A stretch of 64,000 nucleotides of DNA from the NCBI GenBank assembly GCA_024643365.1, contig JAHENC010000001.1, forward strand, positions 62,001 to 126,000, read 5' to 3'. The position numbers and the translations under genes were made by a program. Every line of letters starts with the position of its first letter. Within the stretch, counting starts at the first letter, position 1. Shown in pieces: positions 57,676 to 64,000 of this stretch. Below the pieces are notes generated by a model. That model saw only the letters and a program-made list of their open reading frames with translations. It had not been told where the DNA came from and searched no databases. This DNA comes from Crocinitomicaceae bacterium (GTDB taxonomy: Bacteria > Bacteroidota > Bacteroidia > Flavobacteriales_D > Crocinitomicaceae).

Positions 57676-58062
57676 ATGATAAAAAAAGGATCCAAATTAT
57701 ACAGTATTGCACACATGACTTGTCCGCAATGTCACGAAGGTCAATTCCTTGTTTCTACTGTATATGACCTAAAAAAACTTGGAGATGTCAGACATGAGTG
57801 TGACGTTTGCCACCTAAAATACGAACGTGAACCTGGATTTTACTATGGCGCAATGTATGTGTCTTATGCTTTAGGGGTAGCTCTATTTGTGACTATTTGG
57901 ACGTCTTGTAAATTATGGTTTCCGAGTTTTGGTGCCTGGACACAAATTGGATTAGTGACCTTTTTTACTATTGTTTTAGCCCCCTATTTATTTGCTTTAT
58001 CAAAAATCATTTGGGCTAATTTCTTCATTTCGTACAAAGCAGATGCTAAGCCAGCAAAATAA
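57676..58062 (+). CDS. DUF983 zinc-finger membrane protein
   Basis: 128 residues. An N-terminal zinc-ribbon-like part with C-x2-C (TCPQCHEG) and C-x2-C (CDVCHLKYE), then two hydrophobic segments (about 60-80, 90-115). The GFYYGAMYVSYALG block is typical of DUF983. Function is not known. Overlaps the start of the Crp/Fnr gene, so both are co-transcribed from the promoter above. Confidence 0.88.
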   Translation: MIKKGSKLYSIAHMTCPQCHEGQFLVSTVYDLKKLGDVRHECDVCHLKYEREPGFYYGAMYVSYALGVALFVTIWTSCKLWFPSFGAWTQIGLVTFFTIVLAPYLFALSKIIWANFFISYKADAKPAK

Positions 58063-58693
58063 GGAGCTCATGCTCCAAGCTCAATTAGGTTACGTACTAG
58101 AGCCCGAGTTAATTACAGAAATGGCGAAACTTGCCAAAGTTCGCGAAACCACAACGGATGAAATCATTGTCCATGTGGGTGATCGTTTACAGTTAATTCC
58201 TATCGTAATCGAAGGATCCATTAAAGTTTCTCGCGAAAATGAAAACGGCGAAGAACTACTGCTTTATTATATTGAAGGAGGGGATACGTGCGCAATGTCC
58301 TTGCAATGTTGCACAAAAAAAATCGATAGTCAAATCAAAGCAACAGCAATGGAGCCATCGCTCCTACTTATGATTCCAGCCGAATATATGGAGATTTGGA
58401 TGGACCAATATAAAAGTTGGCGAACCTATATCATCAGCAATTACCACACACGCATGATGGAATTAATGGAGTCCATTGATGCGATCGCCTTCATGAATTT
58501 AGATCAACGTTTACTCAAATACCTTCGCGATCAAGCTAAATTACTTGGTTCGCTTGAGATTTTGCACACGCATCAGCAAGTCGCAGACGATTTACACTCC
58601 TCTAGAGTGGTGATTTCAAGATTGTTAAAGCAATTAGAAATCAAAGGGGAAATCACCTTGCACCGTAATAAAATCATCTTGAAAACAATTTAG
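58043..58693 (+). CDS. Crp/Fnr-family transcriptional regulator
   Basis: 216 residues from the ATG at 58043 (overlap 20 bases with DUF983). A later in-frame ATG at 58070, three bases after AAGGAG, would give 207 residues; either is possible. N-terminal cyclic-nucleotide-binding-like domain about 20-140 (EIIVHVGDRLQLIPIVIEGSIK, GEELLLYYIEGGDTCAMSLQCC) and C-terminal helix-turn-helix about 170-216 (HTHQQVADDLHSSRVVISRLLKQLE). Close pairs of Cys (SLQCCTKK) might ligate a cluster or sense redox, but this is inference. It is the likely binder of the palindrome at 57612. Confidence 0.92.
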   Translation: MLSQQNKELMLQAQLGYVLEPELITEMAKLAKVRETTTDEIIVHVGDRLQLIPIVIEGSIKVSRENENGEELLLYYIEGGDTCAMSLQCCTKKIDSQIKATAMEPSLLLMIPAEYMEIWMDQYKSWRTYIISNYHTRMMELMESIDAIAFMNLDQRLLKYLRDQAKLLGSLEILHTHQQVADDLHSSRVVISRLLKQLEIKGEITLHRNKIILKTI

Positions 58694-58728
58694 TTTTCAG
58701 CCTTTCCTCTCGTCCTGTTGATTATTGT

Positions 58729-58736
58729 TATTTTTG
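58729..58736 (+). promoter_or_regulatory. Promoter -7 box of the sulfotransferase/AP-TPR pair
   Basis: TATTTTTG, 22 bases before the GTG at 58759. No -33 TTG at normal spacing. Confidence 0.5.
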
Positions 58737-58758
58737 ATTAACCTTATCAAAAAAGACT

Positions 58759-59310
58759 GTGATTACACTTATAACTGGCATTCCCCGTTCAGGAACTTCC
58801 TTGATGATGCAACTTTTCAAAGCAGCAAACGCTGAAATCGCAACGGATGCTATTCGAACGGAGGACGAAAATAATCCGAAGGGATATTATGAACTAGAAG
58901 CGGTGAAGGGAATTGTGAAGAACAATCAATTCTTGAAGGAACTTGATGGGAAAACCATCAAAATTGTGGCACCATTGGTTTCGTTTATTGACCTTTCTCT
59001 TGATTACAGAGTTGTTTTCATGCTGCGCGATTTAGACGAAGTGGTTCAATCTCAAGAAAAAATGGTCGGAAAAGACCAACAAGATCAGAAGGAAAAGTTT
59101 AAAACAATGTACACTTTGCACATTGAAAAAAGCCGTCAATTTTTACTTAGTAATCACATCCCTTTCATAGAAATTCAACACCGAGAATTACTTCAAGAAT
59201 CAGAAACTACCTTGCAACACTTGATTGATTTCTGTCAATGGGAAACATCAATAGATGAATTGAAATCCGTGATTGACCAATCACTTTACCGCAATAGAAA
59301 AAACGCATGA
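58759..59310 (+). CDS. Sulfotransferase-family protein (short)
   Basis: 183 residues starting at GTG (no closer ATG). The P-loop-like PAPS motif GIPRSGTS is at residues 7-14, and VFMLRDLDEVVQSQ (R-D-x6-S pattern) is the second, 3'-phosphate-binding motif. This matches the sulfotransferase superfamily but the protein is short, ending after about the third strand helix. No signal peptide: cytoplasmic, as expected for a PAPS user. It overlaps the next gene by four bases (ATGA). The acceptor is unknown. Confidence 0.85.
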   Translation: MITLITGIPRSGTSLMMQLFKAANAEIATDAIRTEDENNPKGYYELEAVKGIVKNNQFLKELDGKTIKIVAPLVSFIDLSLDYRVVFMLRDLDEVVQSQEKMVGKDQQDQKEKFKTMYTLHIEKSRQFLLSNHIPFIEIQHRELLQESETTLQHLIDFCQWETSIDELKSVIDQSLYRNRKNA

Positions 59311-61784
59311 GTTCAAAAAAGAAAGTACTCGTCATCGGTTGGGATGCGGCCGAATGGAAAGTCATCATGCCCCTGATTCAACAAGGTAAAATGCCCGCAC
59401 TTTCTCGATTAATGTCTCGTGGAGTTCACGGCAAACTTCAAACCTTAGACCCGCCGCTTTCTCCTATGTTATGGACAAGCATTGCAACTGGATTCCGGGC
59501 AGACACCCATGGAATTGGTGGATTCATTGAACCGACACCAGACGGAGAAAACCTTCGTCCAGTTACTTCAACTTCACGAAAAGTCAAAGCGATCTGGAAC
59601 ATCTTGAATCAAGAAGGATACAAAAGTAATGTCGTGGCATGGTGGCCAAGTAATCCAGCGGAACCCATCAATGGAGTCATGGTATCCAACTTATATCAAA
59701 TTGCGACGAAACCATTGAACGAAGAATGGGAAATGCCGAAAGGAACTATACATCCAGAAGCGCTGACCGAAAAAATGAAGGAGTTTCGCATCCACCCGCA
59801 TCAAATCAACATGGAGCAGGCTCAAGCCTTCCTTCCGAATATCAAAACAGATGAAGCTTTGCGTTCCGATCCACGAACAGCTAGTGTTTTGCGAACCATG
59901 GCCAATGCAGGCACTATTCACAGTGCTACTTGTCATTTACTCGAAAACACGGAATGGGACTTTACCGCAGTTTACCACGATGCTATCGATCACTTCTCGC
60001 ACATCGCTATGCGTTATTTCCCACCGAGAAGACCCGAAATTCCTGAAAAAGACTTTGAGGATTACAAGGATGTAGTCGAAGCAGCATACTTGTTTCATGA
60101 CCGCATGTTGGCAAGGATGATGAGCCTTATTGATGAAGAAAATACAACGGTTTTATTAATCTCCGATCATGGATTTCATTGTGACCATCAGCGTCCGTTG
60201 TATATACCAAAAGAACCGTCCGGACCCGCAGTTGAACATAGTCCGTTTGGCGTTTTTGTCATGGCTGGACCTGGAATCAAAAAAGATGGACGTCAAATTT
60301 CAGGATTAAGCGTTTTAGACATCACTCCTACTCTACTTCACCACATGGATTTACCCGTTGGTAGCGACATGGAAGGAAAAGTCGCATATGCGTGTTTTGA
60401 AGAAGCTCGAGAAACACATTTTATTGATTCATGGGAATCCGTACCGGGAGAGTCTGGTATGCACGATTCGCTGCTTCGCGAAGATCCATGGGCAGCACAA
60501 GAAGCATTGCAACAACTTGTTGAACTTGGTTACATCGATGCATTGGATGACGATAAATTGTTGCAAGTTGAAAAATCGAAACGCGAAAACGAATATTACA
60601 TCGCTCGAAATTTACTGAATGCCGGGAAATTTGCCCCGGCCATTGAAATTTTAGATCGAATTTATACCGAAAGTAAGATTCAACGATACGGACAACGATT
60701 AGCTTTCGCTTATTTAACGAAACGACAGTACCGAAAGTCAATGATGATTCTGGAGGAACTCAGCGAACAAAACAAACAAAGTCAAACAGCGGAAGATGCC
60801 TATGATAAATTAGGCATGGAACAACCCCTGTATTTGGAATATTTGGAGGGACTCATTCTTTTGGCCATGAACAAACCGCATTTGTCTCTACCGAAACTTT
60901 TAAAGATTCAAGAAAAGAATCCATACAATTATCAATTAGCATTGAACATTGCACAGATTTTCCTTCAACGAAAAAAATATGACTTAGCTGAAATTCAGTT
61001 TATTCGCGCCTTGAACATCGACGATTCACATGCGAGAGCCCACCATGGACTTGGACTTGCCTTTTTACGTAGGGGGAATTTGAATGCCGCTATTGAAGAA
61101 TTTCTCATTGCCGTAGACTACGATTTTTTCTTCCACCGTGCACATTATCACCTAGGGGAAGCGTTGATTCGACAGGGATTATTTGAGGATGCCATTCAAG
61201 CATTTGAAGTTAATCTGAGGATTGCTTCAAACAATGTAAAGTCACATAAATGGTTATATGAAATTTACAGAGATCACCTAAAAGACAGCTCCAAAGCGGA
61301 ATATCATGCACAGCAACTTGAAAAATCCATAAAAGGAGAACGTATAATCTGTACTGAAGCAGTAGCGCAAGATCAAGAGAAGGTTTTAGCCTTTATCGAA
61401 TCATTAGGGCATTCCATTTGTCAAGATAAGAAGGTATTGGAGAAAGCTGCGAATCTTTTCCAAGACGCATCTTGGTTGGAAGATGTTGTAGATCAAATAA
61501 TCTATATACCAAGTCACTCTTTATCCTTCCTGCCTGATCATTTTAACTACAAATTATTATATGTTCAAAGTCAAGTTGATTTTAGTCCAAAAAACAAAAA
61601 AGGGGAAACCTTGTCAACTATTTTATCTACCAAGAAATTAGCGCATTTCGAACAGGAACAAGCAAAAATTGAGGCCTGGATGGAAAGTCAGGCAAACCTT
61701 TCGGTACTTTACTTAAGCTATCCTGAAATGGAAGAAAACAGAGAAGAACAAGGATTTATACTTGATAATTTTTTGAAGAAGTAA
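59307..61784 (+). CDS. Alkaline-phosphatase-superfamily protein with TPR repeats
   Basis: 825 residues, no signal peptide. The N-terminal domain (about 1-400) is a type I phosphodiesterase/nucleotide pyrophosphatase-like AP fold: GWDAAEW (metal-binding Asp13), PPLSPMLWTSIATG with a likely nucleophile at Ser52, AIDHFSH and LLISDHGFHCDH (metal ligands). Residues about 430-690 form TPR-like helical repeats (FAPAIEILDRIY, YDLAEIQFIRALN, ARAHHGLGLAFLRRGNLNAAIEEF), and the last 130 residues are a separate helical region. It could hydrolyse phosphodiesters or sulfate esters, or transfer such groups, on a scaffolded substrate. Coupled to the sulfotransferase. Confidence 0.85.
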   Translation: MSSKKKVLVIGWDAAEWKVIMPLIQQGKMPALSRLMSRGVHGKLQTLDPPLSPMLWTSIATGFRADTHGIGGFIEPTPDGENLRPVTSTSRKVKAIWNILNQEGYKSNVVAWWPSNPAEPINGVMVSNLYQIATKPLNEEWEMPKGTIHPEALTEKMKEFRIHPHQINMEQAQAFLPNIKTDEALRSDPRTASVLRTMANAGTIHSATCHLLENTEWDFTAVYHDAIDHFSHIAMRYFPPRRPEIPEKDFEDYKDVVEAAYLFHDRMLARMMSLIDEENTTVLLISDHGFHCDHQRPLYIPKEPSGPAVEHSPFGVFVMAGPGIKKDGRQISGLSVLDITPTLLHHMDLPVGSDMEGKVAYACFEEARETHFIDSWESVPGESGMHDSLLREDPWAAQEALQQLVELGYIDALDDDKLLQVEKSKRENEYYIARNLLNAGKFAPAIEILDRIYTESKIQRYGQRLAFAYLTKRQYRKSMMILEELSEQNKQSQTAEDAYDKLGMEQPLYLEYLEGLILLAMNKPHLSLPKLLKIQEKNPYNYQLALNIAQIFLQRKKYDLAEIQFIRALNIDDSHARAHHGLGLAFLRRGNLNAAIEEFLIAVDYDFFFHRAHYHLGEALIRQGLFEDAIQAFEVNLRIASNNVKSHKWLYEIYRDHLKDSSKAEYHAQQLEKSIKGERIICTEAVAQDQEKVLAFIESLGHSICQDKKVLEKAANLFQDASWLEDVVDQIIYIPSHSLSFLPDHFNYKLLYVQSQVDFSPKNKKGETLSTILSTKKLAHFEQEQAKIEAWMESQANLSVLYLSYPEMEENREEQGFILDNFLKK

Positions 61785-61838: not shown

Positions 61839-62729
61839 ATGAAAACATTATCTTCTTCGAATAAAACAAGATTAAAACAATATACGGCAGTTGCTGGAGC
61901 TTTAGTTGCTCAAGGTAATTTACAAGCACAAGTAGTTGCTACTGATTTAAATCCTGATGTTGTAGTTGATTCATTATCTGCTCCATTTATGTTGGATTTC
62001 AATAACGACTCGAATCCAGAATTGAACTTTTTCGTTCAGCACATAAGTGGTGCTTCTTCAACACAGGGTGTTCAATTTACCTATGAAGGTGCTTTAGCTG
62101 CTGCTTTGACAATGAATGGAGTTTCATTAGTTGGGGCTGCCGGAACGGGAAGCTCATCTTCCTCTTTTCAATTAACCGCACTGAACAATGGTGATGCCAT
62201 TTCATCGGCTGCGAACTTCGGAACTTCCTCTTACAACGCATTAGGTGTAGACATTCTTGTTGACGCTGGGATACTCGGACAAATTCCAATTCAGCAAGGG
62301 AATTTCCTAAATCAATCAAACAAATTTTTAGGCGCAAAACTAAGCGCTGGAGCCAATACGTATTACGGATGGGTAGAGCTTTCTGTTAATTCAAACGCCT
62401 CACAAATCACCATTCATGGTTATGGTTATCAAGCAACTGCAAATACACAAATTTTAGCAGGTGAAGGAGCTAATTCAGGATTGGAATTAATTTCATTATC
62501 GGATAAAGTTACGATTGTTGGTACACCAGAACACGTGAATATTAATGTGACACCAGATGTAATCGGTGCAACTGTTTCCTTTGTTTCCATATCCGGACAA
62601 ACGTTGAAAACAGAAAAGTTAACAGATGTAAACAATACGTTATCCTTTGATGAACTTAGTACTGGAATTTACCAAGTTCTTGTTTCCAATGGAACAGAAA
62701 CAACGACACAACGTGTTTATGTAAAATAA
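61839..62729 (+). CDS. T9SS-secreted protein with C-terminal sorting domain
   Basis: 296 residues. The N-terminal part (KQYTAVAGALVAQGN, ending LQAQ) is a Bacteroidota export signal with an unusually polar start before the hydrophobic core. The middle (about 30-205) is beta-rich, Ser/Gly/Asn-rich, with few charges. Residues about 215-296 are a type IX sorting domain (VNINVTPDVIGATVSF, LSTGIYQVLVSNGTETTTQRVYVK). Substrate, adhesion or matrix role unknown. Ends at a strong terminator. Confidence 0.85.
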   Translation: MKTLSSSNKTRLKQYTAVAGALVAQGNLQAQVVATDLNPDVVVDSLSAPFMLDFNNDSNPELNFFVQHISGASSTQGVQFTYEGALAAALTMNGVSLVGAAGTGSSSSSFQLTALNNGDAISSAANFGTSSYNALGVDILVDAGILGQIPIQQGNFLNQSNKFLGAKLSAGANTYYGWVELSVNSNASQITIHGYGYQATANTQILAGEGANSGLELISLSDKVTIVGTPEHVNINVTPDVIGATVSFVSISGQTLKTEKLTDVNNTLSFDELSTGIYQVLVSNGTETTTQRVYVK

Positions 62730-62793: not shown

Positions 62794-64000
62794 ATGAGAA
62801 AAATTCTTGCTTTTCTGATTCTCTCCATTTGTCATGTAGTAACTGCACAAATAACAATCAACGAGGGCTGTAATAAAAATTACCTATCCTCTACCGACGA
62901 AAATGGCGATGCCAGTGATTGGATTGAATTACATAACGCTGGAACAACCTCTGTCAATCTAGTTGGATATGCTTTATCAGACAAATTGACCGTTCCAAAT
63001 ATGTGGATTTTGCCGAATATCAATATTCCTGCAGGTGGATTCCAACAAATATTTTGTAGCCAGAAAAATCGTTTTGGCTCTACCCCTTTTCAATTTGGTA
63101 TTTCAGAACAAAATTTCACTCCACAAGTCGGATGGAGTCAACATCAGCTTGCAACTCCATTTTATTGGGATGGCGTTTCAAACGTGGTTATCAACGTTTG
63201 TTCTTATAACAATTCACAATACACGGAGAACTCGATCTTTAAACAAACGGCTACTCCCTACATTTCAACGATTGGTAGTTTTATCGATGGGAGTCCGGCA
63301 GCATGCTCTGCCAGCAATGCTTCCACTTATTACCAACGTCCAAACATCAAATTGAATAATGCGGTCATCGGTAACGGAACAATTCAAAATGGGAACACTG
63401 AATATCCAGCTCCTTTTGGGAATTGGTACTGGGGTGCGCGTCATCAAATGCTCATTAGAGCAAGTGAATTAATTTCGTCTGGATTGTCAGCAGGAATGAT
63501 TAATTCCATCGGATTCGAAGTTGCCTGGACTAACGGTGAGAATTACACCTATGTCGATTTTCACCTAAATACCACAAGTTTAACGGAACTCACCAATGAA
63601 TTCATTCCCGTACAAGGAAACCTGATTCACACCAATTTCAAACTAGACGGTAGCGGAGAAACGGTTTATTTATTTGACCCTTCGCAACAATTGGTTTCTA
63701 GTCTAACCGTTGAATCACCAGCAGCGGATATTTCTATTGGACGAACCCCGGATGCTTCATCAACGATCAAATGGATGAACCCGAGTCCTGCGAGTACCAA
63801 TAACAGTAGTTCAGTTTATTCGGATAGCCTATCTCGCCCAATTAGCTCTCGTATTTCTGGAGTGGTAAATTCCAGTTTCTACTTGAAGTTATCCCATAAT
63901 AACACAGTTCCATCTAAACTTGTTTACACAACCAATGGTTCGGAACCGACCTTTACTTCCACAACCTACACGGACTCTATTTTTGTATTTCAAAAAACAG
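62794..64000 (+). CDS. Lamin-tail-domain secreted protein, 5' part (cut by right edge; probable CotH-type)
   Basis: Open frame from ATG at 62794 to the window end (402 codons, no stop). Signal peptide about 1-19 (ending VTAQ). Residues about 20-110 fit a lamin-tail (LTD) domain: ITINEGCNKNYLS, DWIELHNAG, NLVGYALSDK, GGFQQIFC. The last visible part (KLVYTTNGSEPTFTS) looks like a chitobiase/hexosaminidase C-terminal-like repeat. In Bacteroidota such proteins commonly continue into a CotH kinase domain and a T9SS sorting domain; that part is outside the window and is inference. Starts about 18 bases after the terminator above. Confidence 0.8.
   Translation, partial: MRKILAFLILSICHVVTAQITINEGCNKNYLSSTDENGDASDWIELHNAGTTSVNLVGYALSDKLTVPNMWILPNINIPAGGFQQIFCSQKNRFGSTPFQFGISEQNFTPQVGWSQHQLATPFYWDGVSNVVINVCSYNNSQYTENSIFKQTATPYISTIGSFIDGSPAACSASNASTYYQRPNIKLNNAVIGNGTIQNGNTEYPAPFGNWYWGARHQMLIRASELISSGLSAGMINSIGFEVAWTNGENYTYVDFHLNTTSLTELTNEFIPVQGNLIHTNFKLDGSGETVYLFDPSQQLVSSLTVESPAADISIGRTPDASSTIKWMNPSPASTNNSSSVYSDSLSRPISSRISGVVNSSFYLKLSHNNTVPSKLVYTTNGSEPTFTSTTYTDSIFVFQKT

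Follow-up and report, generated by a model that had tools for sequence, protein, structure and literature searches.

A linked sulfotransferase, AP-TPR and exported-protein gene trio as a candidate module for protein modification before export

Genes at the locus and the enzyme pair

Near the end of a 64,000-nucleotide stretch of Crocinitomicaceae DNA (assembly GCA_024643365.1, contig JAHENC010000001.1, positions 62,001 to 126,000 of the forward strand; hereafter the window, meaning the whole stretch analysed), three genes follow one another on the (+) strand. The first, at 58759..59310, starts with GTG and encodes a stand-alone sulfotransferase of 183 amino acids, designated ST. The second, at 59307..61784, starts with ATG and encodes an 825-amino-acid protein, AP-TPR, which combines an alkaline-phosphatase-fold (AP) domain resembling nucleotide pyrophosphatases/phosphodiesterases (NPPs), an array of tetratricopeptide repeats (TPRs) and a decayed ST-like C-terminal domain. 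The third, at 61839..62729, encodes a 296-amino-acid secreted protein, YGW, which is linked to and co-occurs with AP-TPR and is our proposed client. The functional linkage of this trio is well supported and, in our judgement, very probable; we infer the role of YGW as acceptor, the nature of the reaction (sulfation), the contribution of the AP domain and the use of an N-terminal tag on YGW for recognition. Our preferred reading, to which we assign a probability of about 0.42, is that ST, AP-TPR and YGW form a functional module that acts on the YGW pre-protein before export, most likely by sulfation.

ST matched the Pfam family Sulfotransfer_3 (PF13469) with 38.4 bits against a cut-off of 27, and the 5'-phosphosulfate-binding (5'-PSB) and 3'-phosphate-binding signatures of sulfotransferases that use 3'-phosphoadenosine 5'-phosphosulfate (PAPS) are both present. 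The 5'-PSB P-loop, GIPRSGTS at residues 7–14 (58777..58800, + strand), contains G7, P9, R10, G12, T13 and S14 (GxPRxGTS), all of them invariant among 13 aligned STs, as are R90 and S98, which bound the 3'-phosphate site (59026..59052, + strand). The role of the Arg and Ser in this site is as described in a published study (PMC6637879). By these signatures ST looks like a PAPS-type sulfotransferase, as an earlier note on this DNA had proposed, and its PAPS site is apparently intact. The nearest solved chains to the ST profile were TPST2 (E 4.1e-4) and the SULTs (4.3e-4), a weak tie. ST shares the P-loop GxPRSGT with TPST2; unlike TPST2 and the SULTs it is bacterial, just 183 amino acids long and cytoplasmic by sequence, and the matches are partial and weak. 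Reading of the ST and AP-TPR sequences, without a signal-peptide predictor, revealed no apparent export signal on either protein.

AP-TPR matched Phosphodiest (PF01663) with 94.5 bits (cut-off 23) together with several TPR models. Its AP domain, of the type I phosphodiesterase-like kind, covers approximately residues 1–400 (59307..60506, + strand). We found that D13, S52, D228, H232, D287, H288 and H311 are invariant across 19 aligned AP-TPRs, in the order in which NPPs carry their metal ligands and nucleophile; the NPP nucleophile is usually threonine, and here it is a serine, S52. Loss of the metal ligands, which the earlier note had raised as a possibility, is not seen in the alignment, and the active site appears to be intact. 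In a fold comparison with the AP-TPR structure model (mean pLDDT 86.8), ENPP1 and ENPP3 were nearest (Z 27.9; ENPP3 at 3.0 Å over 286 residues), and Xac NPP (Z 27.3, 2.5 Å, 272 residues) and PafA (Z 26.4, 3.4 Å, 323 residues) also matched, while sulfatases scored below the NPPs and PafA, with Z of 25.0 or less. A sequence search with the window's AP domain alone returned no solved relative at E<=0.01, and it was the fold search that gave relatives. Formylglycine-type sulfatases carry a C/S-x-P-x-R signature at the nucleophile. This signature is absent around the AP-TPR nucleophile, where S52 lies within LSPMLW with no arginine following. The AP domain is thus nearest to NPP/ENPP phosphodiesterases rather than to sulfatases. 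It shares with Xac NPP, ENPP1 and ENPP3 the closest fold and the conserved set of D, nucleophile, D/H, DH and H, and differs from them in being joined to TPRs and an ST or ST-like domain and in showing no export signal.

The TPR helices of AP-TPR occupy residues 417–674 (60555..61328, + strand), where TPR models match and helix pairs appear in the structure model. This region resembles the TPRs of O-GlcNAc transferase (OGT) and SPINDLY, which were among the best matches and in which TPRs hold protein substrates. Like these enzymes, AP-TPR has a catalytic domain joined to a TPR superhelix; unlike them it has other catalytic domains, the resemblance is confined to the TPRs, and a Pfam scan of AP-TPR gave no glycosyltransferase. 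Residues 677–825 (61335..61781, + strand) form the decayed sulfotransferase-like domain: a profile of stand-alone STs also matched residues 712–823 (iE ~1e-5), and the P-loop is gone. Some genomes encode AP-TPR-ST as a single protein. A full-length fused ST match was present in AP-TPR of L048, L051 and G055 (L016), with L015 intermediate (loci and genomes are cited by our L and G numbers), and L048 and L051 retain PRSGTS in the fused domain. The window's AP-TPR thus carries a decayed copy of ST, and the separate ST is the intact one. From the fusions and the decayed domain, AP-TPR and ST would seem to act as a single unit. At L052 (1196-3860) the AP and TPR parts lie in separate open reading frames (ORFs) of 354 and 225 amino acids with an ST ORF downstream, which may be a true split or a broken frame.

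In a set of 60 genomes, consisting of the window's own genome and others from its genus and order, AP-TPR was found in 12 and ST in the identical 12, a coincidence beyond chance, so the expectation of the earlier note that the pair would be kept together elsewhere held. The two genes are adjacent or fused in ten of the 12, approximately 1.1 kb apart in G005, and on separate contigs in G003. Across Bacteroidota AP-TPR is rare (2 of 395 sampled genomes, one being the window's), and it was found in 10 of 149 Planctomycetota and 7 of 145 Verrucomicrobiota genomes, at the E-value limits used and with the centre genome among the matches in both phyla. A locus 81% identical to the window's module, with the same gene order, was present in L033, a metagenome-assembled genome recorded as Chryseobacterium gleum, a title that may be wrong. 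For the supply of PAPS, APS (adenosine 5'-phosphosulfate) kinase is present in the window's genome. It was found in 11/12 genomes with the trio versus 25/48 others (Fisher p=0.019) and, within the genus, in 9/10 versus 8/27 (p=0.002); both tests are uncorrected for relatedness, and three weak matches were scored as absent.

The exported YGW protein

YGW homologues adjoin AP-TPR in three phyla, downstream of it in Bacteroidota and usually upstream in Planctomycetota and Verrucomicrobiota. We counted as close AP-TPR loci those matching the profile at E<1e-150, after removal of duplicates sharing the first 60 residues, and as a YGW neighbour any match at E<1e-5 on the same strand within 1.5 kb. 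On this basis a YGW gene lies beside AP-TPR in 31/42 close loci, several of which are near relatives, and the YGW profile was partly built from these loci; its best reversed-sequence decoy scored 0.0011. Among more distant AP-TPR-like loci (E 1e-60 to 1e-150), YGW was a neighbour in just one of 11 (L100, cut at a contig end), this class having been reduced from 21 rows by dropping ten that represented the same genes truncated at locus ends.

Co-occurrence of YGW with AP-TPR was also apparent at the level of genomes. With a YGW profile lacking the C-terminal tail, at E<=1e-50, all 12 AP-TPR genomes of the 60-genome set were positive and 0/48 of the others; weaker relatives, the best at 1e-31, occurred in 16 of those 48. 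AP-TPR, ST and a strong YGW are found together in G003 despite lying on three different contigs. When the 18 AP-TPR-negative genomes with YGW-like genes (these 16 and the Planctomycetota G493 and G559) were searched again, no AP-TPR was found: the matches covered only the TPR part, apart from two short stretches of the AP part in G493. YGW was detected in 5/149 Planctomycetota, comprising 3/10 AP-TPR-positive genomes (G452, G534 and G537) and 2/139 negative ones (G493 and G559); G452 and G534 are the positive carriers with AP-TPR at E<1e-150. The earlier note had described a two-gene unit. The ST/AP-TPR pair itself is real, but these data make the unit a trio with an exported protein, and the note had also overlooked the decayed ST C-terminus of AP-TPR. 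We consider the secreted YGW protein to be the likeliest acceptor or client of the enzyme pair.

Several arrangements of the YGW genes were observed along the way. G452 has 12 YGW matches (L145, L150, L154, L157 and L159-L166), most with a second, AAGTxxYA-like signal-peptide subtype. Tandem modules, in which each of two AP-TPR genes has a YGW gene of its own behind it, are present at L107 (6531-15322, in G009) and L108 (7016-14512, in G045); G009 holds three YGW genes, and the modules of G009 and G045 have one separate ST gene. The tree of AP-TPR is in agreement with that of YGW (r=0.88, 17 pairs, 0/2000 permutations). We did not count this co-divergence as evidence of interaction, since shared history alone predicts the same.

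The C-terminal tail of YGW varies with lineage, being a type IX secretion system (T9SS) type A domain in Bacteroidota and PEP-CTERM or dockerin in Planctomycetota and Verrucomicrobiota. In the window the T9SS type A sorting domain spans 62481..62726 (+ strand). It scored 24.3 bits against TIGR04183 (cut-off 23) and fell below the Pfam cut-off (25.7 versus 27); its model has the C-terminal domain (CTD) fold, matching the NucA CTD with Z 9.9 and 2.1 Å over 73 residues. YGW clients thus bear tails like those of PEP-CTERM/exosortase substrates and T9SS cargo; unlike plain PEP-CTERM or T9SS sorting, the tail varies by lineage, and there are in addition a tag at the N-terminus and enzymes in the cytoplasm. 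The window's YGW matched only models lying on its tail. Its structure model is all-beta, for which Foldseek gave no match at E<=0.001 and VIA-align gave matches mainly on the CTD.

The YGW signal peptide and the surroundings of the locus

In genomes with AP-TPR, the YGW signal peptide is mostly weakly hydrophobic and usually carries a tag resembling [RK]LxxY[ST]xxAGA, while most YGW relatives from genomes that lack AP-TPR have a signal peptide of the ordinary kind. The window's tag is RLKQYTAVAGA, residues 11–21 of YGW (61869..61901, + strand), inside a weakly hydrophobic signal peptide. The best 11-residue hydropathy ranged from 1.27 to 1.91 in 15 YGW proteins from AP-TPR genomes and from 2.38 to 3.44 in 10 from genomes without it, a comparison that omits six weaker or lipoprotein-like rows (L137-L142). 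With 68 versus 17 rows in an all-row test, the difference gave p=4.7e-6, ignoring relatedness. Both the motif patterns and the hydropathy cut (2.3) were chosen after inspection of the data. Motif A was present in 48/68 rows (the G559 row included) versus 0/15 untagged rows, with five loci and rows starting late in the profile dropped from this count. A fitted motif was found within the first 70 residues of 33 of 1475 ORFs of at least 120 amino acids, and all 33, near-duplicates included, read as YGW-family. In G030 and G021, both with AP-TPR, a YGW-like paralogue encoded away from it lacks the tag and has an ordinary signal peptide, three unlinked YGW proteins of G055 bear the tag, and in AP-TPR-negative G493 the YGW signal peptide is ordinary (hydropathy 2.89).

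Upstream of the trio, the gene at 57992-58693 is of the Crp/Fnr type by Pfam matches to cNMP_binding and HTH_Crp_2, and the ST and AP-TPR ORFs overlap by ATGA; both were as claimed in the earlier note. A DUF983 gene and the Crp/Fnr gene (57676-58693) sit ahead of ST in many relatives, G003 included. The promoter of its own that had been proposed for the pair was not borne out. A sigma-70-like scan of 58600-58800 found a single site, on the (−) strand, and none on the (+) strand; a TAnnTTTG element, which we take to be the Bacteroidota -7 consensus, lies at 58729-58736, and such elements are not clearly commoner in the window (75) than in shuffles (mean 67.6). Downstream, another exported-looking gene with a Lamin Tail Domain match (62794-63999) extends past the end of the window.

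Possible reactions and competing explanations

Given a PAPS-type sulfotransferase, a scaffold of TPRs, a partner that is exported and a tag mostly found where the enzyme is, the simplest model is cytoplasmic modification of the pre-protein before export, in a manner akin to RaxST/RaxX. The TPR superhelix of AP-TPR would hold the YGW pre-protein in the cytoplasm, with AP-TPR recognising the signal peptide by its tag and poor hydrophobicity. ST, whether attached or a separate partner, would then modify YGW, with O-sulfation of a tyrosine or another hydroxyl from PAPS as the likeliest reaction, and the NPP-type AP domain may perform a coupled second step, acting either on this client or on the nucleotide by-product (PAP or PAPS clearance). 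The client would then be exported, and released or anchored by the lineage's own sorting tail. Within this model, action of the enzymes on YGW before export seems rather probable to us, and sulfation as the reaction a little short of an even chance.

Several observations weigh against this reading. The closest solved relatives of ST are weak and undivided between TPST2 and the SULTs, and APS kinase was not found in G030, a genome with the trio. No YGW neighbour was detected at 11 of the 42 close AP-TPR loci (L043, L049, L104 in G003, L088, L095, L089, L050, L090, L180, L091 and L052). Among these, L091 starts at a contig end, the genomes of L095 (G534) and L104 carry YGW elsewhere, L090 reached a YGW score of 4e-6 with the first profile only, and the PEP-CTERM-like neighbour of L180, which contains the segment LTRYSALVGA, is below detection by the YGW profile. 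L086 (7484-11401, in G121), counted among the 31, encodes an AP-TPR-ST fusion in another Bacteroidota family; its neighbour, a T9SS-like protein of 400 amino acids, is only very distantly related to YGW (E ~7e-6) and its signal peptide is ordinary. With all rows included the hydropathy ranges overlap (0.67–2.6 versus 0.97–3.44). Although rows with and without the tag intermingle on the tree within Bacteroidota, few of the contrasts between signal peptide and AP-TPR are phylogenetically independent, just two on the starred branches (sign test p=1). In the Planctomycetota genome G559 (L149) YGW is tagged, yet AP-TPR was not found in that genome, which is split over many contigs and may be incomplete. 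Finally, motif A is missing from 20 of the 68 rows. By eye, 17 of these 20 have a tyrosine near the expected cleavage site (AYA-, AYG- or CYA-like); L168 narrowly misses the motif, while neither the motif nor a cleavage-site tyrosine is present in L044 and L172.

Two candidate acceptor residues were considered, and neither was accepted as proven. Against the tyrosine of the tag stand the rows without motif A and the fact that cleavage would remove a modified signal peptide. The tyrosine of the YGW motif occurs in 55/71 tagged and 8/18 untagged rows; the G and W of this motif are conserved in tagged and untagged rows alike, which may point to a structural role.

Animals and plants are well known to sulfate proteins that they secrete. 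In the literature found, the bacterial example is RaxST/RaxX of Xanthomonas, where the RaxX precursor has 60 residues and a double-glycine leader and is sulfated by RaxST before secretion through type I export (PMC6637879). As in that system, the gene for a cytoplasmic PAPS-type sulfotransferase adjoins that of an exported client, with ST, AP-TPR and YGW in a row in the window. Unlike RaxX, the proposed client is a 296-residue beta protein with a signal peptide and a T9SS, PEP-CTERM or dockerin tail, and YGW does not match a short double-glycine client of the RaxX type; unlike RaxST, the enzyme of the module has AP and TPR domains, and sulfation here is a prediction. Our literature search found no description of such a sulfotransferase/AP-TPR/exported-protein module. 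A search for terms in PMC1569441, consulted for PEP-CTERM/exosortase sorting, had no hits for sulfotransferase, phosphodiesterase or alkaline phosphatase, and a paper on secondary SecA proteins (PMC4452313) had none for sulfotransferase, phosphodiesterase or PEP-CTERM.

Many sulfotransferases and NPPs act on glycans, lipids and nucleotides, so ST and AP-TPR could instead build or alter a glycan, lipid or small molecule that bears sulfate or a phosphodiester link and that exported YGW would bind or carry outside the cell; the all-beta YGW model has a shape common among binding proteins. We think this unlikely, as it leaves unexplained both the change in the YGW signal peptide with AP-TPR and the long TPR array, and no constant glycosyltransferase or lipid gene was noticed among the neighbours, although no systematic test was made. 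Somewhat less plausible still is that AP-TPR is mainly a chaperone dedicated to the targeting of pre-proteins whose signal peptides are weak, its AP and ST activities being regulatory or secondary. The TPR scaffold and the weakly hydrophobic signal peptides that accompany AP-TPR would suit such a role, but the invariance of the seven AP residues and of the PAPS-site residues points to catalysis. The earlier note had suggested an add-and-remove or relay pair, which we read as one handling sulfate on a cytoplasmic small molecule, consistent with two enzymes that look cytoplasmic and are co-inherited. This we regard as improbable; it ignores the exported partner, and we dropped the sulfate cycle as the leading model because the AP domain is nearest to NPP phosphodiesterases and its nucleophile context lacks the sulfatase signature. 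That the three genes adjoin by shared history or chance with no common function, as the many Bacteroidota loci from one genus-level group and the agreeing trees would allow, is very improbable given linkage in three phyla with differing gene orders and sorting tails, the tandem modules of L107 and L108, unlinked co-occurrence in G003 and the near absence of YGW beside the more distant AP-TPR-like loci.

Beyond modification of YGW before export, a broader and more doubtful proposal is an export-coupled protein-modification system in at least three phyla, in which cytoplasmic AP-TPR-ST would read a new class of N-terminal tag lying within weakly hydrophobic signal peptides and modify its clients in two steps, by sulfation and by an NPP-type phosphodiester or nucleotide reaction, whichever sorting route to the surface follows (T9SS, exosortase or other). 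Because such a module comes with a defined enzyme and a candidate client, and with a tag whose presence mostly tracks that enzyme across Bacteroidota, Planctomycetota and Verrucomicrobiota, modification before export would become directly testable in environmental bacteria. A cytoplasmic AP-superfamily branch and a surface-protein family would each gain a function as well.

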